From an uncultured bacterium (GTDB lineage Bacteria; Patescibacteria; JAEDAM01; Absconditabacterales; Absconditicoccaceae): a stretch of DNA of 12,049 nucleotides. The stretch is from the NCBI GenBank assembly GCA_937950065.1, contig CALFEN010000144.1:1-12049 (forward strand), in the 5' to 3' direction. The translations under genes were made by a program, and so were the position numbers. Under the pieces are notes generated by a model that searched no databases, had not been told where the DNA came from, and saw only the letters and a program-made list of their open reading frames with translations. Below, one piece after another: positions 1,011 to 11,015 of the stretch. Numbering within the stretch: position 1 is the first letter of the stretch; every line of letters begins with the position of its first letter.

Positions 1011-1028
1011 ATGCTCAAATTATGCTAA
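1011..1028 (+). other. Possible five-residue leader ORF overlapping the next start
   Basis: ATG at 1011 reads MLKLC and stops at TAA 1026-1028, overlapping the ATG at 1022 in another frame. This ATG, rather than the one at 1022, carries the A-rich AATAAAA leader typical of starts here. It could couple translation to the downstream gene or be chance. Evidence is weak. Confidence 0.15.
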
Positions 1029-2626
1029 TTAAAAAATTAGTAACTGAAGTAAAAATGCCTGAAGATTTGTTTCATGAAACACTTAAATTGATAGACGATT
1101 TTACTTTATTGAATTTTATAAGAGATATTCATAAACTTAAAAAAGAGGATTTTTTGTTTGCTAAAGATTCTGAAGATATATTTCAGGAACTTCATGAAGA
1201 AGGTAAAGTAAACATAGGAGATCAAGCTTATTATGCTCCTCATACGTTGGTTAGGTTGTACAGAAATCTTGAAAAGCATTTATTTTTTTCGAATATTTAT
1301 TTGAATCTAGGGAACTGATCAAATATACAAGAACTTAGGGCTACAGTGTGTGCTTTCCCAAAACAAAGAATAAACATAAATATATGAAAGAATTCTTCTT
1401 TGGCTCATGGTGTAAGATTTTCGATAAGTATGCCGTCTCATCAGGCTATAAAATTTGATATATGAGATAATGTTTTTGTATGAATATGAACGGATTTGAA
1501 CAATTGACTCACTATTCAGTCATGAGAAATTGATAGATTTACTTCTATATGATTTTGAGTTATTTTGGAGCGTGGTTGTAATATATGATGATGTGCTATC
1601 ATATGAGATGGCGCAACAATTTGAGCTTGAGTGCACATTCCTTCAAACTCTATGGTATTGCCTGGTAGAACTATTACTCAAGAGGTTGTATGAAATATTA
1701 TAACACTGGAAAGATATTTGAGTTTCCAGGACGCAGAGAAAAACAAGTTTAATTGAATTATAAGGCTTGAAAAAGATGAAGATAGACATTATATAGATGA
1801 GATATGACCTTTGTTTAAATTTCTGGAGAAGTTTAACAGGACTGTATTGGGAGAGAATCATCTTTTCCCAAATTTATACTGACTTATCAAAAAATATCAT
1901 AAAGAACAATACAATGAAATTATACAAAAATCTTGATGAAAATTTGTGAATATAAATCTTCCAAAGAACATGGGTAAATTTTTGTATCATTATTATATAG
2001 AAGCATTTGATCTATTTCAAAATCCAAAACATAAAATAAAGAAGTACGAATGAGAATTTACAGAGATAAAAATAGATAATCAGGTAAAGATATCTGAATG
2101 ATGAATAATGTACAATATCTGAAATACAACAATAAAATGAGATACAACAATAAATGGGATTGTAGTAAATAGATCCGGGGATGAATGAGGATCCCTTTTT
2201 ATAGAAGATTGTGAGATAGAACATTGAGTTGTTTTTCATGCGAAATGAGAAAAGAAACTTGAAGATGTGCACGTATGAAGACGGTCTATCATACATGGAA
2301 AGACAAAGGTTTCAAATTATAATATTTGAGAAGGGACTATGATCCATGCTTCCAATGTGGTCTCTTGAGAACCAAGCAATGAATGGTCAAGGTATACTAT
2401 TTGAAATAATGCGACTATAGTTTGAGCAAAAATAAAGGATTCTTCGATTTCAAGACATTGTCGTATGACATGACACGATATCGGGGTGAAAATAAAAAAA
2501 TCTGAAATATGAGCTTATACAACAGTGAGAGATGGCGTTCTGATAGAACAATCCATAATTTGATGAAATATAGAAATCCCTAGATGAGCTCAAATAAAAG
2601 ATGTGCAGATCCCTGTTGTAGAATAG
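1022..2626 (+). CDS. Left-handed beta-helix (hexapeptide-repeat) protein, possible acyltransferase
   Basis: A 534-residue protein that is intact only when about forty TGA codons are read as Gly; the standard code would stop it at residue 98. After a helical N-terminal part (1-100) come two long stretches of Ile/Val/Gly hexapeptide-type repeats typical of left-handed beta-helices. The first (about 106-222) contains IGDGATIGAGVHIP and ends in a VLPGRTITQEV segment. The second (about 346-534) includes the IGEGTMIHASNVV region. Charged helices (about 222-345) separate them. This fold is used by sugar O/N-acetyltransferases, GlmU/LpxA-type enzymes and gamma carbonic anhydrases. His residues lie within the coils, but I cannot identify a specific active site, so acyl transfer to a sugar or cell-wall substrate is inference. 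It has its own promoter (963-990), no signal peptide or membrane segment, and converges on the next gene. Confidence 0.8.
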
Positions 2627-2677
2627 AAAAATATAGATTCATTTTTTCACATAACCTGTTTAATTTATATATATAAT

Positions 2678-2696
2678 ATATTAGAATTTATACAAA
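2678..2696 (+). repeat. 19-bp exact repeat, copy 1 (3' of beta-helix gene)
   Basis: ATATTAGAATTTATACAAA occurs here, 51 bases after the stop of the beta-helix gene, and again at 7758-7776. Here an imperfect hairpin (AATAT / ATATT) followed by a short T run overlaps it, so a weak terminator or 3' UTR element is possible. Both copies lie just downstream of long plus-strand genes. Confidence 0.5.
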
Positions 2697-2730
2697 TATT
2701 TTTTGAGATTAATAAAATTTTGTTGTATAA

Positions 2731-4464
2731 TTAAATTGTTTTTTGTAATTCCTTTAGTTTCTCGTTGGCTTTTGCTATAATAGAGAATCGAGGAACTTCA
2801 CTTGTTTCTTCTTCCCTGCCGATGATTAGGACTCCATCTTCAAGATAAAATTTCTTTGCAATCATTATAATACGCTCTATCCCTGTTTTATAATCTATTT
2901 CATTTAAAATTTTAGAAAGAATTTTGGATAATATATTTTCTAATGTATAATCTTCATAAGGTAAAATAATAGTTGATAGGCTTTCAGCATCATTTATGTT
3001 AGCTACTTTTATAATTTTATCAGCTACTTCTGCACTTCTCAATTCATCAATTCAAGATGTATACAAGAAAAATAATGTATCAAAATTTGATATATTTTCA
3101 AAATTTATTCAGCAAATTAATTTTATTTGAGAGATTATTTCGAAATATTCTTTTGTTCAAGGTGATGAATTTTGACATTCTGAAATTAGTTTATTTAATC
3201 CTTCTCTCTGGCATAAAACTGCGATTAATTCATCCTTTATATCTCCATCAAAATACTTTTTCCTTTTATCGCAGATATATTGTTCTAGTTCCAATTGTTC
3301 CTTCCTTAATTCATTTCTTTTGGAAATTGCTATACTTAATAATTCTTCATATTCTGCAGATAAAGGTATTGATTTGCGGTATAGGAAATCTTTTATAGAT
3401 AAATAATCACAAATGGTATAAAGGTCATTCATCCCTTTTACTGCTTCTAATTCTTTTTTGCCTAATTCATATTTTTTTTTGAGTATCTCTTGTGAAAAAA
3501 AAGATACTTTTTTGTCCATGAGAAAGACATCAATAGTGTTTTCTAATTTGTCTAAACTCTTTAGATCTTTGGCTATAAGAATTTCGTTTGAAAGTAATCC
3601 TTCCAAAATTATATCTATTTCTTGGAATATTTCATTATCTTCTTGTAAGAAGTTTTTGATATAAGTCAGATTTTCTATTAATAGACTGTGGAGTAATGGT
3701 TTTGAGGCTTTTATGAGTCTATCTCTTACTTCAATTCTTAATTGTCTTAATCATGGAATGATGTAGTCTTCGTCTCATATACTTTTATATCGATTTATAT
3801 TCTCGTTTATCGTTTTTATCTGCTCGAATGTCGTAGAAACTGCTAACTTATCTCTTGTAAATGATATAAGCTTGTCTTGTAAATTATGAAACCACTTAAT
3901 ATCGTCTATATAATTTTGAATAACTCTTCATTCTCAATCTACATATAAGTTATATATTTTTGATATCTCTTCAAAGTTTTTTATCTTTTCGAAATTGTTT
4001 ATACAATATTCTTTGATCAACTGCAAAAGTATATATGTCTCTTTATCGTTTTCATCAAAATATTTGATAAGTTCCAAAAGTTGTTCCAATGACAGATCGC
4101 TATTTATGTATAATTTTTTGTCGTTTTTAATTTGTTTGTCTAATATTTGTTGTAAATAAGGATACTCTGGATCATCTTCAAAAAAGATCTCTAATAATAA
4201 TTTTTTTTGCTTAAAATTTAATATACTTGTATCTTTTATACATTTTTGAGCTTGCCTAATAAGGAATTCTCATCAATATAAGGTTAAATCTTGCATGTCT
4301 TTTGTAGAAAGATCATCCAAAACCTCTTTTAATTCTACGACTCATAGGAGAACTAGACTTGTAATAGATTCTATGCATTCTTTTTCTTCAAGAGAAAAAA
4401 TAATTTCATCTACTCAATCAGGAATTTCCTTACTGAATACATTACTAGTTTTTATGCTGTTCAT
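2731..4464 (-). CDS. Unknown large helical protein (577 residues)
   Basis: One frame runs from ATG at 4464 to TAA at 2731-2733 when internal TGA codons are read as Gly. The standard code splits it into several pieces in the same frame, so it is not a pseudogene. The product is rich in Lys, Glu, Leu and Ile with long predicted helices and no signal peptide or membrane segment. A charged stretch at about residues 370-405 has coiled-coil character. It may be an alpha-solenoid or scaffold-like cytoplasmic protein, but no motif gives a function and I do not recognise the family. It is transcribed from a good promoter (TTGACT/TATACT) divergent from the lytic transglycosylase/SGNH gene, with a palindrome between the two promoters, which suggests shared control. 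Its 3' end converges on the beta-helix gene. Confidence 0.8.
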
Positions 4465-4499
4465 TAATCTTATTTGGTAGATATAAAAATATAGCCGAT

Positions 4500-4527
4500 A
4501 GTATAATTATATAAAATATAAAGTCAA
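4500..4527 (-). promoter_or_regulatory. Promoter for the 577-residue protein gene
   Basis: On the minus strand TTGACT (4527-4522) is followed after 16 bases by TATACT (4505-4500), about 35 bases upstream of the ATG at 4464. It faces away from the promoter at 4577-4604. Confidence 0.7.
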
Positions 4528-4556
4528 TAGTATTTTTGTCGTATTATAATACTATT
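4526..4556. promoter_or_regulatory. Palindromic site between divergent promoters, possible operator
   Basis: GTATTATAATAC (4541-4552) is a perfect 12-bp palindrome. A wider inverted repeat AATAGTATT (4526-4534) / AATACTATT (4548-4556) encloses its left half. It lies between the two divergent promoters and touches the -35 box of the minus-strand one, a suitable place for a regulator to control both genes. AT-rich DNA makes short palindromes common, so the operator role is inference. Confidence 0.4.
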
Positions 4557-4576
4557 TTTCATAAGATGGTGAAAAT

Positions 4577-4604
4577 TTGACAAAAAAAAAGAATTGGTTA
4601 TAAT
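4577..4604 (+). promoter_or_regulatory. Consensus sigma-70 promoter for the transglycosylase/SGNH gene
   Basis: TTGACA (4577-4582) and TATAAT (4599-4604), both perfect consensus, are separated by 16 bases. The start codon at 4639 is 34 bases downstream and follows an A-rich leader without a Shine-Dalgarno. Confidence 0.85.
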
Positions 4605-4638
4605 TTAAAATAAAAATTTAATATTAAACAAAAATAAA

Positions 4639-7600
4639 ATGGCTGAACTTATGCCTTTTAACCCAGAAAACGACCTATTGCCGGTCGAATACAAAAGACT
4701 TGTAGAAATGGCAAAGAATGAAATTTCTTCTCAAAAATTCATGGAAAATGATGAATTAAGAATTTCTTTGGAGGAAGAATTATGAAGATATTTTTTGAAG
4801 CACGGTTTGACAGATGAAAATATAAATCAAAATCATACAACTGATGTTTATAGGAGATGGTATTTGCAATTATGCGAAAATGTGAAAAAAAAGAATCCAG
4901 ATTTTCAGATAAAAACAATCAATCAATTAAGAGAAGTTTATCAAAATTCACACCTTTCGTCAAAAACAAAAGAATCTTCTTGAGAACAAGGAATACAAGA
5001 AGATACTACAGAACCAATAACTAAAATAGAGATAAAATCTAAAGAATGAACCTATGCTATATGACAAAGAATCTGGAAGGAGATTATAGAAAAGTTTAAT
5101 ATTCCAAAAGAGCAGATAGATAATTTAAAGGAAGATATAAATAATTTTTTAAAATCATTTTTGAAGAAATATAAATTTTTCGCAGCTGGAGATGAAATAA
5201 AAATATATGATAATAAACTTGTTTTGAAAAGAGATGATAAGAATAAGCGAGATTTGGATGAGGTTTATTATGAATATAAATTATCTCAAAAACTAAATTC
5301 AAAGGCAGGAACTCTTCCTGCTACAGAAGGTGAGAATAATGTCCCTACAGATAAACAGCAGCCTGAAACCACGGTCCCTCCAACTCCTGTTGAACCGGCA
5401 CAACCACAGGATCCAAAAGCTACTGATCAGCCAAGTGCTCCAGTTCAAACTCCTGAAGGGAAATGATGAGATGGTAATTCTGGGTCTCCAGCACCGACTC
5501 CTAAAGAATGAGAACCTGATGAGCAAGAGAAATCAGTAACTCATGAAGCTCAAGCGAAGAAAATGGCTTTAGAGTTGATTTTTACATGACTTGGTAATTG
5601 ATTGGATACTTTTAAAGATGCTAAATATTGAGATTTAAAAAAATATATTGAGAAAAGAGATGATAAATTGGTATTTTTCTTGGATAGTTACTTGAATAGT
5701 CTCAGAATGAAGTGAAAAATGGAATTGGCTAATAAAATAGATGAGCAGGTGAAGAATGTTGGTAAGGAAAAATTTGAAAAGTATATAGTGAAAGCTTTAA
5801 GTGATATATGAATAAATGCTCAAACTTATGATAAGATACCTGATGATAAAAAATTGACAGAGCTATCTTTAAATTATATTCCTCCAAAAGCAGACATGTC
5901 TTGAGATATGAATAAATTTCAATGAGCTTTTAGAAAAGAGTCTCCTGCTTGAGATGGACAATGAGAGCAAGAAACTTGAGATTGAAAATGAAAACAACCG
6001 GAGCAGAAAGAAGAGAGCATGGAGAAACCTGATCCAAAAGTTAAAGAATCTTATCTTAAATATTATAGAACTTCTCATAAAAGTATGCATTTTTTCCAAA
6101 AAGTCGATGGGAAGACTAAAAGAATAGATGTTATAAAACATTGAAAACTTGTAGATGAAAAAGAATTTGTTAAAATGCTGGTTAGTGTAAAACATATTTA
6201 TGAGGAAGTATGATTCAAAAATTTTTCTTTGAGTGATATATATGGTTTGATATATGTAGAATCAGAATGATTTGATCCTTTGTCTACTTCCCCTGATAAT
6301 TTCAGTAGATGACTTATGCAAATGAGCAATAGCGCTGTGATAGATATGGGACATGATAGACCTGAAAGGTTTCAGAATCCAGCTATAGATAAAATAAGAC
6401 AAAAATGAAAAAGGAATTCATTAGGTAATTATGTAGTTAATGGCGATGTTTCAAAGACCCATTCTATATACAATTATGAAGATAATCTCAGATTGTGAAT
6501 GAGTTATCTTAAAGGTGTAGATGTATACTCTAAAATAGAGGAAGCAACATTAAACTTAGGATCACAAAGAGAGCAGATGAGATCTGCTTTAAGAACACAT
6601 TTAAGATTCAATGATTCATTATTTGATAAGATATTTGATGAGGTTTTAAATAAGGATTCTGCCTATTTCCAAAAATATATTAAATTAGTAAGATATAATC
6701 AATGCACAACTATTTTTGATAAAGGAATAGAGAGAAGGTTCGTATATGGTTTTTGGGTGTTAATGGCCTCAGCGTCTATGTTTGGTGGTGAAGGGAATTT
6801 TTCTAAGTGAAAAAGTAAAACTAAGTGATCAGAAAGATCAAGGACTCATGGCCGTTTAAAACCATGAAAGGAGTCTTGACAAACAGCAAGACCTGTAGAT
6901 GTTCCTGCACCAGCTCCAACACAACCTGCTCAGCCAAAAGCATCTGCAGAAACTTCAAGTGTTCCAACTCAACCATCAGTTGCTGAGCAGCCTAAAACTC
7001 CGGCACCAAAACCTACAGAGCATGCGTCTATTCCTTCGGTTCCTTCCAAACCTGAAGCACAGCCTGAACATAGAGAACATATAGATCGTAAGGATATTTG
7101 GGCAAAAACAGCTATCTTTGGGGATAGTATTACCGAAGGTTATGGTAGAGTGCTGATAGAATGATATAGAGATAGAAAGGGAACAAGAACAATGGAACCA
7201 GTAATGAAATGACATGTAGGGAAAGTTACTATAAGAGGAAAAGAACGAGAAGATATTTCTTGAGAACATTGTAAAGCTACAGTAAATATATCTTCCAAAG
7301 CTATATTATCAAATATAAGATCTTATTTAGAGCAGCATCCAAAACCAAATCTAAAATATGCAGTAATTATGGCATGAGCAAATGATTATTGAAATTCTGA
7401 TGTCCTTGATAATATTGCCAACGCAAAAGAACTTTTGGAAAAAGCTTGAGTAAAAGTTGTAATCTGAACTTATGCCTGTACTCATCCATGAGTAAAAGGT
7501 TTGAATAAGAAAATAAGAAATACTTTTGGAAGTTCTGTGCTTGATATTGAATCTAAAATGAAGTGATGAGATCTTAATAATAATTTATCCTGACTTGTCG

Positions 7601-7758
7601 CTGGTGATGGGTTACATTTGAATTCTAGCGGATATGCCAAGCAAGTGGAAATTATAGAGGCTTATCTGAAATCATTGGAAACTTGATGACAGAGAGGGCA
7701 GACAAGCGTTTCTGAAGCTGATCAACAGATGTTAGACATAGCATGAGCTCCTAAATAA
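4639..7758 (+). CDS. Fusion of lytic transglycosylase (SLT) domain and SGNH/GDSL hydrolase domain
   Basis: A 1039-residue protein, continuous only with TGA read as Gly. Order: an unknown charged N-terminal part (1-222), in which residues about 135-210 faintly recall LysM; a Pro/Thr/Gln-rich linker (about 223-299); a helical region; a Gly/Glu/Lys-rich linker (about 435-468); an SLT-type lytic transglycosylase domain (about 515-650); a second Pro/Ala-rich linker (about 752-814); and an SGNH hydrolase domain (about 820-1020). SLT signs are VESEGF with likely catalytic Glu541, GLMQ at 558-561 and NLRLG near 616-620. SGNH signs are GDS with nucleophile Ser830, GAND at 913-916 and DGLH with Asp990 and His993, so the catalytic residues look complete. 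SLT enzymes cleave glycan strands and SGNH esterases commonly remove acetyl groups, so joint processing of O-acetylated peptidoglycan is a reasonable inference. No signal peptide or clear membrane helix is present, so the export route is unknown. The second SLT-to-SGNH order and start (ATG after an A-rich leader, below a consensus promoter) are well supported. Confidence 0.85.
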
Positions 7759-7780: not shown

Positions 7781-7805
7781 AGGGATATCTAAAATCCCTT
7801 TTTTT
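7781..7805. terminator. Bidirectional terminator between convergent genes
   Basis: AGGGAT (7781-7786) pairs with ATCCCT (7794-7799) across a 7-base loop. A run of T follows on the plus strand to 7805, and a run of A precedes it (7774-7779), which gives a T run on the minus strand. It can therefore end transcripts of both the transglycosylase/SGNH gene and prmC. Confidence 0.85.
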
Positions 7806-7875: not shown

Positions 7876-8730
7876 TTATATTAAAGTGGCTTTAAGTATT
7901 TTTATATTGAAATGGAAAGTTGCAACTTTTTCAAAATTTATCCTGTCTTCGTATTCTTTAATAAGTTTGTCTGCTTGTCCGTCTAGCATTTCCAAAAACA
8001 TAGTGAATTTTGATTTTCAAGTTTTATTAAAATTCAATATTTGGTCAAACATTTTGCGGTAGAGATCTAATCAGTCTTCTCATCATACAAACGCTAATTT
8101 GGGTTCTCGTTTTTTTACATTATCTTCCACGTTGTCTTCAAACATTTTGTCAGGGATATAAGGCAAATTTGCAACCAATACAATGTCTTTATTATTTAAA
8201 TTTTTGGCTAGATTACCAAAGTCAAATAGATCCATTTCCAATAAATCTATCTTTGTTTCGGGTAATAATCTTTGTTTGTTTGTTTTGGCTACTTCCAATG
8301 CTTCAGGAAAATACTCTGTTAGATAAATCTGACTAATTTTATCTTTGTTGAAACTTGCTACACTCAATCAAAGTACTCAACATCAAGTTCATATATCTAT
8401 CAAAATATGTTTTTTATCCTGTTTTCCCAAAAAATCGTTTACGGATAAAATCATATATTCTGTTTCTGGACGGGGGATTAAAGTATCTTTATTTACAGTG
8501 AATTTTATTCCAAAAAATTCTACATAGCCAAATATATATTCCAAAGGCTTTTTTTGATAGAAATATTCATCATAGGATTTTTGTATACTTTCTAGATCTT
8601 TCCAATCTAATTCTCTTTCGCTGTGTGCAAAGATTTTCTCTCTGGAAATGTTTATATAATACGAAATAAGTTTCTCCAAAACTTTTTTGTTTTGATATTT
8701 TACATCTTGTAGTAAATCTATTATTCTCAT
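7876..8730 (-). CDS. prmC: PrmC/HemK, peptide chain release factor N5-glutamine methyltransferase
   Basis: A 284-residue protein of normal family length. PrmC transfers a methyl group from S-adenosylmethionine to the glutamine of the GGQ loop in release factors. A helical N-terminal domain with the PLEYIFGYVEFFG segment (62-74) and LIPRPETE (84-91) is followed by the methyltransferase motif I DIGTGCGVLG (112-121). The four glycines of that motif (114, 116, 118, 121) are all TGA codons. The substrate-binding NPPY motif appears as NLPY (188-191). The C-terminal part contains the usual late GGEDGLDLY segment. If UGA is sense here, RF1 should be the main or only class I substrate. The start ATG overlaps the end of the upstream gene by 10 bases, so the two are probably co-translated. 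The stop is TAA, and the bidirectional terminator lies about 70 bases beyond. Confidence 0.93.
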
Positions 8731-9417: not shown

Positions 9418-10092
9418 TTATATTTCTTCATCTCATCAGGTTCATGCTATATCGTAATTATCGTGCCATGTACTTGTGCGTCATTCGGGAAAAGGTTTAG
9501 TTTTTTTTTGCCTTTGGGTAGGGAGAATAACAGTTGGAGATGTTTTTGGAGGCTTCTTATAATGCTCATATCGCATTTTTCTCAAAATCATTTTAGTCTT
9601 TGCAGAGATATCTCTGTATATCTCTTTATCATTTTCCAGTCACAGTTGTTTATAGTTCGGTATAAAATTATCTTTTTCTCAATCAAAAGCTTCATCGAAA
9701 CTTTGGTATAAATTTGTTTCTTTTCAAGATATTAAACTATTAAAAAACTCTAAAAGTTTTGTTTTATATTTATTGATTATTTTTTGATAAATATTTTTTT
9801 GTTCCAGATTGAAAAAAAGGTTTTCCCTTTCTACCACTAAAATTTCATCAGCTAAATTTTCTGGTAATTGTTCTCCACAAAATGACAATAATATCTCTTT
9901 TTTACTGGTTTTGAGTTTGTAATTGTCGCGAAGTCATTTGATAATTTCTATAAATGTTCATCTATTAATGGTTGGATCTGGACTATCTTTAAATTTGATA
10001 TGATAAGCTAGAAATATATAAAGAAATATATATTCTTTATATATTCATTCTATAAATTCTATTGAATCTAAAGAATTTTTCTTTTCTAGCAT
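9418..10092 (-). CDS. Unknown protein, paralogue of the upstream gene
   Basis: A 224-residue protein from ATG at 10092 to TAA at 9418-9420, with TGA read as Gly. Its N-terminal part (GIYKEYIFLYIF, residues 16-27) matches the upstream neighbour's GIYEEYIYLAIF (21-32). Further matches are an NY pair and FCGEQ against FYGER. A later SFDEAF (131-136) matches the TFDEAF unit of the neighbour. The C-terminal end is basic and then Gly-rich (TGGDEEI). No signal peptide is evident, and the hydrophobic stretch near residue 22 is short and more like an amphipathic helix. Function and family are unknown. It starts 23 bases after the stop of its paralogue, with no promoter between, so the two form an operon. 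The ATG at 10092 is preferred because it aligns with the start of the neighbour. Confidence 0.75.
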
Positions 10093-10115: not shown

Positions 10116-11015
10116 TTATACTGATTCGGTTTCTAGAACCATTTCTTTTAGAACTATCCTGAATTTTAGTAATAGACTGTTGTACAGATCTGCATTCAAT
10201 TTGATTATAGTTTTTAATATTATAGATTGGATAGTTGGGGTCTCATTCTCATAGTATTTATCTGTATTTATGGCTGCTGTTATATTTCTTTCTCATAGGA
10301 GTTTCTTCATTTGATCCCAATAATTTCATATAATTTGATCAAAGGACTGATCAAATGTTGCTCACTCTTTCATTCTATGCTTTATATCACCTGCAAATAT
10401 TTTTAATAAGTTAATTCTTTCTTGTCTTTCTTTTTTTTCAGACTGGATTTCTTCTCATTCGTTTTCTTTATCTTCAGTTCATGTTTTTTCTTCTTTCTTT
10501 TTTAGAGGTCTTTCTGATGCTATATTTTCAATAGTTATTTCCCCGGTTGGAGAGGGTAATAGTGAATCTATATGAGGAATATAAATATTCACGAGTCCCA
10601 GAAATGCTTCATCAAAAGTTTTTCCTTCTCTCATTTTTTCACGTATATCTTCATCAAATTTTTTAAATCTATCATTATACTTTTTTATAGCATTTTCGTA
10701 TTTACTCTTTTGAGCAAGAAGACTAGATAGCTCGATCCTGTCTTTTCAGACAATCTTTTGCATTCAAGAATTAAATCTTTCTCAATAAAATCCTATTAGA
10801 ATGTCTATAAAGGAGGCTGATATATTATAATTTGTTTGTATGCTAGTCAATATCTTCATTATAAGGATATCTTGTTCTGTAGGAGTCATTGCTGCTTTAG
10901 ATTCGTAATAGTATCTTATGAATATTGCAAGATATATATATTCTTCATATATACCACCTATGAGTGTTAATTTTTTATTTTCACATTCTTTTAGTATTTC
11001 AGGAGCTTTTTTCAT
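10116..11015 (-). CDS. Unknown protein with internal duplicated motif; first of a tandem paralogous pair
   Basis: A 299-residue protein from ATG at 11015 to TAA at 10116-10118; several internal TGA codons are read as Gly. After an N-terminal region shared with the downstream paralogue, it carries two copies of a helical unit 87 residues apart: DIREKMREGKTFDEAF (123-138) and DIKHRMKEGATFDQSF (210-225), with 9 of 16 residues identical. A highly charged Lys/Glu linker (about 170-203) separates them. No signal peptide, membrane segment or catalytic motif is recognised. It has its own consensus promoter and leads a two-gene operon. Its function is unknown; paralogy, repeats and charged linker are what the sequence shows. 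Confidence 0.78.

Follow-up and report, generated by a model that had tools for sequence, protein, structure and literature searches.

Can one bacterial polypeptide both unblock peptidoglycan and cut it? The question is raised by a gene at 4639..7758 on the forward strand of the 12 049-nucleotide stretch of DNA analysed here (hereafter the window; contig CALFEN010000144.1, from an uncultured bacterium of the Patescibacteria), which encodes a 1039-residue protein, P0001, in which a lytic transglycosylase-like (SLT) segment is followed by an SGNH hydrolase domain. Lytic transglycosylases form 1,6-anhydro-muramic acid and are blocked by an O-acetyl group at C6 of muramic acid, which the SGNH-type esterase Ape removes (PMC6174289), and in Neisseria the transglycosylase LtgA and the esterase Ape1 associate in a complex in which each stimulates the other (PMC7083599). 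Because the C6 acetyl group blocks lytic transglycosylases and LtgA and Ape1 cooperate, deacetylation followed by cleavage on one polypeptide is the reading favoured here. The activity pair proposed for P0001 would be that of LtgA and Ape1, whose enhancement is reciprocal; the Neisseria enzymes are, however, two separate proteins acting on their own O-acetylated wall, whereas P0001 is a single polypeptide. As far as its sequence tells, P0001 is a real, divergent and probably bifunctional wall enzyme, and we put at about even the chances that it is a two-enzyme peptidoglycan degrader, deacetylating and then cutting, that is aimed mainly at the wall of another bacterium.

Reading frame and genetic code

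Read with translation table 11, positions 4639-7758 are interrupted by stops, whereas with table 25, in which TGA codes for glycine, they form a single open frame containing 43 TGA codons. Four of these codons (544, 558, 620 and 913) sit on glycines that the SLT and SGNH folds lead one to expect: Gly544 follows the catalytic Glu-Ser, Gly558 belongs to GLMQ, Gly620 to NLRLG and Gly913 to GxND. Because of this coincidence the TGA=Gly code is well supported. The sole database homologue found, P0002, is the identical gene translated with TGA as tryptophan and carrying two other substitutions; the tryptophan reading was rejected, since it would spoil the GLMQ and GxND motifs, as is seen in P0002. 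That a public entry carries such a translation means that database proteins of code-25 organisms may thereby escape searches.

Domains of the window protein

The SGNH hydrolase domain (residues 826-1004; 7114..7650, forward strand) is certain on sequence grounds. In the full-length scan PF13472 scores 36.2 bits against a cut-off of 32.9, rising to 41.0 bits when the domain is scanned as a segment, and the profile aligns end to end on residues 826-1000 (profile positions 1-177 of 178). Alignment and motif place the predicted nucleophile Ser830 in block I (GDS; 7126..7128), Asn915 in block III (GxND; 7381..7383) and Asp990 to His993 in block V (DxxH; 7606..7617), and Gly867 (7237..7239), placed by the position of RGKERED and assigned by eye, is a candidate block II glycine. 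The serine, asparagine and Asp-x-x-His blocks and a score over the cut-off are common to P0001 and PF13472 hydrolases in general, but unlike the usual members the SGNH domain of P0001 is joined to an SLT-like domain and clusters with the fused SGNH domains of relatives. Since the profile matches residues 826-1000 end to end, no space is left for the β-sandwich insert of about 115 residues found inside the catalytic domain of Ape-type esterases (PMC6174289); the comparison with Ape1-type enzymes that an earlier note on this DNA had suggested thus brought out a difference. Neither MBOAT nor Acyl_transf_3, a trait of PatB and OatA, is fused to P0001 or present among the nine window proteins scanned. 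An AlphaFold model of the domain made without relatives has a mean predicted local distance difference test (pLDDT) score of 50.6, and a Foldseek search with this low-confidence model returned nothing at an expectation value (E) ≤ 0.001; the SGNH esterase 3mil (E = 0.034) headed the list, and the rows below it were unrelated folds.

The SLT-like domain, which is probable, spans approximately residues 520-690 and contains extra inserts (6196..6708, forward strand; located by a PF01464 segment match, hhalign and motifs). It retains the predicted catalytic acid/base Glu541 (6259..6261), the GLMQ motif at residues 558-561 (6310..6321), NLRLGMSYL at residues 616-624 (6484..6510), which resembles the N-x-x-x-G-x-x-Y-L of SLT domains, and Tyr686-Asn687 (6694..6699), which resembles their Y-N. 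These elements are common to Slt70-type soluble lytic transglycosylases (PF01464), from which P0001 differs in its divergence, its sub-threshold score, its inserts between motifs and the attached SGNH domain. The ordered motif E[ST]..GLMQ..NLxxGxxYL..YN, which follows the pattern of the family and was composed after the P0001 sequence had been viewed, occurred in none of 200,000 shuffles. When compared by hhalign with a profile of SLT segments from 32 relatives, the domain scored 26.5 at a probability of 20%, whereas 200 shuffles reached at most 18.6 and 1.8%, and a profile combining seven relatives with the window sequence matched Slt-type entries of the PDB (best 5ohu, E = 3.8e-6). All of the key residues named in the earlier note, Glu541, GLMQ 558-561, Ser830, Asn915, Asp990 and His993, lie where it had placed them.

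Residues 1-454 (4639..6000) are charged and rich in proline and threonine at about 220-295, with no family over the cut-off in the Pfam scan and no hydrophobic segment by hydropathy. A linker rich in proline, alanine and threonine, read from the translation, separates the two enzyme domains (about residues 748-815; 6880..7083).

Relatives that pair the two domains

Searches with P0001 itself returned little. Residues 480-1039 found only the same gene among the best 7992 candidates scored, and no relative was found with the SLT-like segment (140 candidates, E ≤ 1) or the SGNH segment (247 candidates, E ≤ 0.01), nor in collections of genome contigs and viral contigs. Among 242 genomes of the class there was a single match, 33 residues long and broken by stops, with no open frame at that place; matches to NCBIfam and PHROGs were far below the cut-off or had none (best E = 0.006).

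A search with TatD led to a related genome (G001, L001) whose tatD has an in-frame TGA, and from there to an order of 49 genomes using code 25, within a class of 353 genomes (304 outside the order). SLT was matched in 28 and GDSL_2 in 15 of the 49 genomes (E ≤ 0.001), and the flanks of the SLT matches were extracted and their frames read. Proteins of approximately 1000 residues with clear SLT and SGNH modules occur in four genomes of this order (L058, L059, L060 and L061); L085 has an SLT domain with a weak SGNH domain and L128 an SLT-like domain with an SGNH domain. SLT and GDSL are both over their Pfam cut-offs in L058, L059 and L061. In L060 SLT is over the cut-off and GDSL_2 below it (24.0 bits), in L085 SLT is over the cut-off and GDSL is not listed, and in L128 SLT is below (15.0 bits) and PF00657 over (26.6 against 23.6 bits). 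A profile of the relatives' SLT domains scores 30.3 bits for L137 and 21.3 bits for L128, though neither was built into it. In all six proteins, as in P0001, the SLT domain precedes the SGNH domain.

A tree was built from 28 SGNH sequences, L049, L054, L056 and L057 having been left out as long or partial frames. P0001 groups there with the SGNH domains of seven relatives and with three proteins of the class that do not belong to the order (support 0.89) and lies nearest L058 (0.75), with long branches; 16 stand-alone SGNH proteins of the order and the class protein L121 fall outside this clade. An alignment of eight SGNH domains shows GNS in place of GDS in L138 and no histidine aligned to the DxxH block in L085. 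Separately, the class SGNH proteins L116, L122 and L123, from outside the order, have no evident signal peptide, and their N-terminal part contains a DGxLGxxT-like stretch that by eye resembles peptidoglycan-binding domains, with no Pfam match.

Outside the order, the class search listed no match covering both domains (scoring being limited to two candidates per genome). A phylum sample of 379 genomes contained 21 with SLT-only or SGNH-only matches and none covering both, in a search that had no positive control, since no known fusion genome was among the matches listed. The earlier note knew of no enzyme with this architecture in the lineage, and the open-licence literature indeed yielded none; neither a fusion of SLT with SGNH nor the carrier family introduced below was found described there.

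Endolysins and virion hydrolases often lack a signal peptide, as P0001 does, and phage SLT matches are common. A tape-measure protein was among the PDB matches of the SLT profile, and GDSL_2 has been reported in endolysins of uncultured phages (PMC5968864). An origin as a phage endolysin or virion hydrolase was nevertheless considered and rejected as very improbable. The C-terminal half of P0001 matched none of 50,697 phage records, and for the SLT-plus-SGNH half of a relative there were matches in 85 phage records and 78 plasmid records, all covering no more than 80% of its length. The genes around P0001 also look cellular by their predicted products: a hexapeptide protein, a methyltransferase and a TatD DNase are over Pfam cut-offs, and NfeD and PrmC_N are sub-threshold.

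A carrier domain with varied wall hydrolases

The fusion relatives (L058, L059, L060 and L061, and less clearly L085 and L128) share with P0001 the C-terminal order of SLT and then SGNH, the SGNH clade and the lack of an N-terminal membrane segment. They differ in their first approximately 500 residues, here termed the carrier domain, which P0001 does not have. The protein was rejected as a carrier-family member: it scores -2.7 bits with the carrier profile, which 238 of 500 shuffles equal, and its hhalign probability is 0.2%. The carrier domain gave no Pfam match over the cut-off and no PDB match at E ≤ 0.1. It was matched in 27 of the 353 class genomes, once per genome, all 27 inside the order of 49 (0/304 elsewhere), with scoring limited to four candidates per genome and some matches partial; examples are L058:7960-10956, L130:4841-7039, L138:4763-7729 and L264:3846-6113.

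What follows the carrier domain varies. Six of the 27 proteins end in SLT or SLT-like plus SGNH modules (weak in L085), one in SLT alone and one in an SLT-like plus a phosphatase-like module; three are GH19-like (L138 with SGNH in addition), five phage-lysozyme-like, six glucosaminidase-like and one VanY, two are unlabelled and two short. Besides GDSL, only SLT (six proteins) and VanY (one) are over Pfam cut-offs, in a scan that covered 18 of the 27, and the GH19, phage-lysozyme and glucosaminidase labels reflect sub-threshold matches in some members and likeness by eye in the rest. With a carrier-free SGNH profile L061, L058, L128, L060 and L059 score 33 to 58 bits, L138 13.5 bits, L085 4.0 bits and the other 20 carriers at most 2.5 bits. 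All seven SGNH-bearing carriers (L085 weak) also have a glycan-cutting module, SLT or SLT-like in six and GH19-like in one.

The gene of L060 has eleven neighbours, encoding RNase Y, an HflX-type GTPase, cytidylate kinase, a type IV secretion system (T4SS) pilin (PF18895), a PilT-like T2SSE ATPase, LytR and five proteins without a family over the cut-off. By tblastn, at least one of them lies near 19 of the 27 carriers and a T4SS-pilin homologue near 14, L060 being counted in both and the fetched flanks varying in length. Because carriers with varied C-termini share the same neighbours, a single locus appears to hold differing wall hydrolases across species. Every fusion carrier except L061 has locus neighbours, and the T4SS-pilin gene is in view for L059, L060 and L128; the VanY-bearing carrier lies outside the common locus, and the P0001 gene is not at it. 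At L134, one of the eight carriers without L060-type neighbours, a coupling-protein ATPase (1202-4177, minus strand; TrwB_AAD_bind 29.0 and TraG-D_C 24.8 bits, both over their cut-offs) lies directly downstream of the carrier at 4310-6829. No such coupling protein was found near the other 26 carriers or in the window. The P0001 SLT segment weakly resembles this ATPase frame, but the resemblance falls outside the SLT motifs and was set aside.

By hydropathy, 14 of 18 carriers have no hydrophobic stretch in their first 70 residues (at most 0.52). Such a stretch is present in L059, L060, L131 and L133 when these are read from the first start codon; it lies upstream of the aligned start in the first three, and the start is ambiguous in L133. 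A C-terminal alanine, in tails such as NIA and NLA, ends 16 of the 27 carriers compared with five of the 141 remaining frames in these loci; an earlier count, which included the non-carrier L140, gave 12/19 and 16/326. In the 368 kb of G113, nine of 306 frames end in alanine, the longest of which is the carrier. As a proven signal the alanine was rejected, since the members are related, it ends only one of the six SLT-plus-SGNH carriers and P0001 does not have it. The signal-less class SGNH proteins L116 and L122 also end in alanine, and L123 does not.

A tentative picture, which we rate as possible rather than probable, is that these TGA=Gly bacteria use swappable wall-breaking cargo: a carrier without a signal would be delivered into the host wall by a machine with a T4SS pilin and a PilT-like ATPase, its C-terminal enzyme being exchanged between species at one locus and its alanine tail perhaps serving in sorting, and P0001 would be an off-locus relative bearing SLT-plus-SGNH cargo on another N-terminal part. 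This picture gained weight because the TraG-type coupling protein adjoins the L134 carrier.

Function and target

In the two-enzyme reading of P0001, the SGNH domain would strip esters, most likely the O-acetyl group at muramic acid C6, that block formation of the 1,6-anhydro product, and the SLT-type domain would then cleave the glycan strand, the proline-rich linker allowing both to work on one strand. The main target would probably be the wall of a bacterium fed upon, reached without an N-terminal signal peptide. The earlier note had envisaged such a deacetylate-then-cut polypeptide; the modules are indeed paired, and the pairing recurs in relatives, but the Ape-type insert is missing and the O-acetyl-muramic activity is putative. 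A number of observations weigh against the two-enzyme reading, and they concern the SLT domain, the ester and the target.

The full-length Pfam scan of P0001 gave no SLT match at E ≤ 1. Scanned alone, residues 475-725 score 18.0 bits against PF01464 (E = 0.0022), below the cut-off of 21.3, in a match limited to a third of the profile (39 of its 117 positions). By hmmsearch, the profile of 32 relatives' SLT segments gives 5.1 bits, which five of 1000 shuffles of residues 481-720 equal, and the AlphaFold model made without relatives, with a mean pLDDT of 40.5 over this domain, provides no structural support. Profile searches of the kind suggested by the earlier note thus place SGNH over the cut-off and SLT below it, with no LysM at E ≤ 1, and its claim of one 1039-residue SLT-SGNH protein stands for the frame and the SGNH domain and is only probable for SLT. 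The low score, the large inserts between motifs and the loss of the usual proline after GLMQ would fit a degenerate, non-catalytic SLT relative, in which case P0001 would be an SGNH esterase with a wall-binding module; we consider this improbable, as the catalytic glutamate, GLMQ, NLxxGxxYL and YN are all retained in order.

As to the ester, SGNH enzymes as a group act on many, and the profile matches of the domain in the PDB comprise lipases, a sialate O-acetylesterase and PatB (E = 3e-6), with none favoured. A substrate that cannot be read from sequence, nearest solved relatives that are varied acylhydrolases and the missing Ape-type insert all lend themselves to an SGNH domain that acts on another ester of the target envelope, in a surface polysaccharide, a teichoic acid or a lipid, so that SLT alone would touch the glycan. 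The recurrence of a glycan-cutting module in 7/7 SGNH-bearing carriers speaks for a substrate in peptidoglycan, and we see the other esters as a real but minor possibility.

As to the target, hydropathy shows neither a signal peptide nor a membrane segment in P0001 (top 19-residue value 1.0). No export signal was found, so that an external target is no more than an inference, as are the acetyl-muramic substrate, the order of action and export itself. Few genomes of the order contain the families of known peptidoglycan O-acetyltransferases (MBOAT in 1/49 and Acyl_transf_3 in 2/49 genomes), these being counts from related genomes, with completeness not given, and not from the genome of P0001 itself; neither family was found in the seven genomes with SGNH-bearing carriers (G163, G166, G108, G149, G210, G051 and G178). 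This rarity makes a foreign wall the likelier target, which narrows the choice between host and own wall that the earlier note had left. Predators or epibionts are among the bacteria that use this code: the Absconditabacterium Vampirococcus kills its host, and the paper on it proposes secreted wall hydrolases as the means (PMC8080830); a Gracilibacteria proteome includes two transglycosylases (PMC11452946). The close kinship of the window's organism to these predators or epibionts is something we infer from the shared code.

An enzyme for the cell's own wall, which might for example make an opening there for a pilus or a secretion apparatus, would have precedents in VirB1-like enzymes, which degrade peptidoglycan for the T4SS and include hydrolases with two wall-degrading domains (PMC12102498). 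The T4SS-pilin and PilT-like genes near the carrier-hydrolase gene in 14 of 27 cases and the coupling protein beside the L134 carrier are in keeping with such a role. The P0001 gene lies away from the carrier locus, however, enzymes for O-acetylation of the own wall are almost absent in relatives and the short SLT proteins of the order (L062-L076) have hydrophobic N-terminal stretches (1.7 or more) that would anchor them in the membrane, unlike P0001; a role in the own wall therefore seems unlikely.

Other features of the window

Upstream of the P0001 gene, a sigma-70-like site, TTGACA-16-TATAAT (4577..4604, forward strand), matches 12 of 12 consensus positions and lies 34 bases from the ATG; this promoter call is a consensus match only, and at 9/12 positions 33 sites were found against 18.7 expected. 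A terminator-like hairpin with T-runs on both sides (7781..7799) lies between the P0001 gene and a convergent gene at 7876-8730; the program listed it for the minus strand only, and the plus strand was read by eye. Divergent from the P0001 gene, 2734-4464 (minus strand) encodes a 577-residue protein without a family over the cut-off. The hexapeptide-repeat protein (534 residues; 1022-2626, plus strand) has matches in just two of the 353 class genomes (E ≤ 1e-8). Two adjoining uncharacterized paralogues with 31% identity over 140 residues lie on the minus strand at 9421-10092 and 10119-11015.

Implications

In P0001, a protein of TGA=Gly Patescibacteria, two activities that act as partners in other systems would be naturally fused, by which the deacetylate-then-cut idea becomes testable on a single polypeptide. 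The carrier pattern in its relatives is the more surprising part of the findings. These relatives suggest that a locus of pilus or T4SS-like type is linked to an exchangeable set of wall hydrolases, and such a set would offer a concrete starting point for understanding the way in which predatory or episymbiotic Patescibacteria open their host cells.

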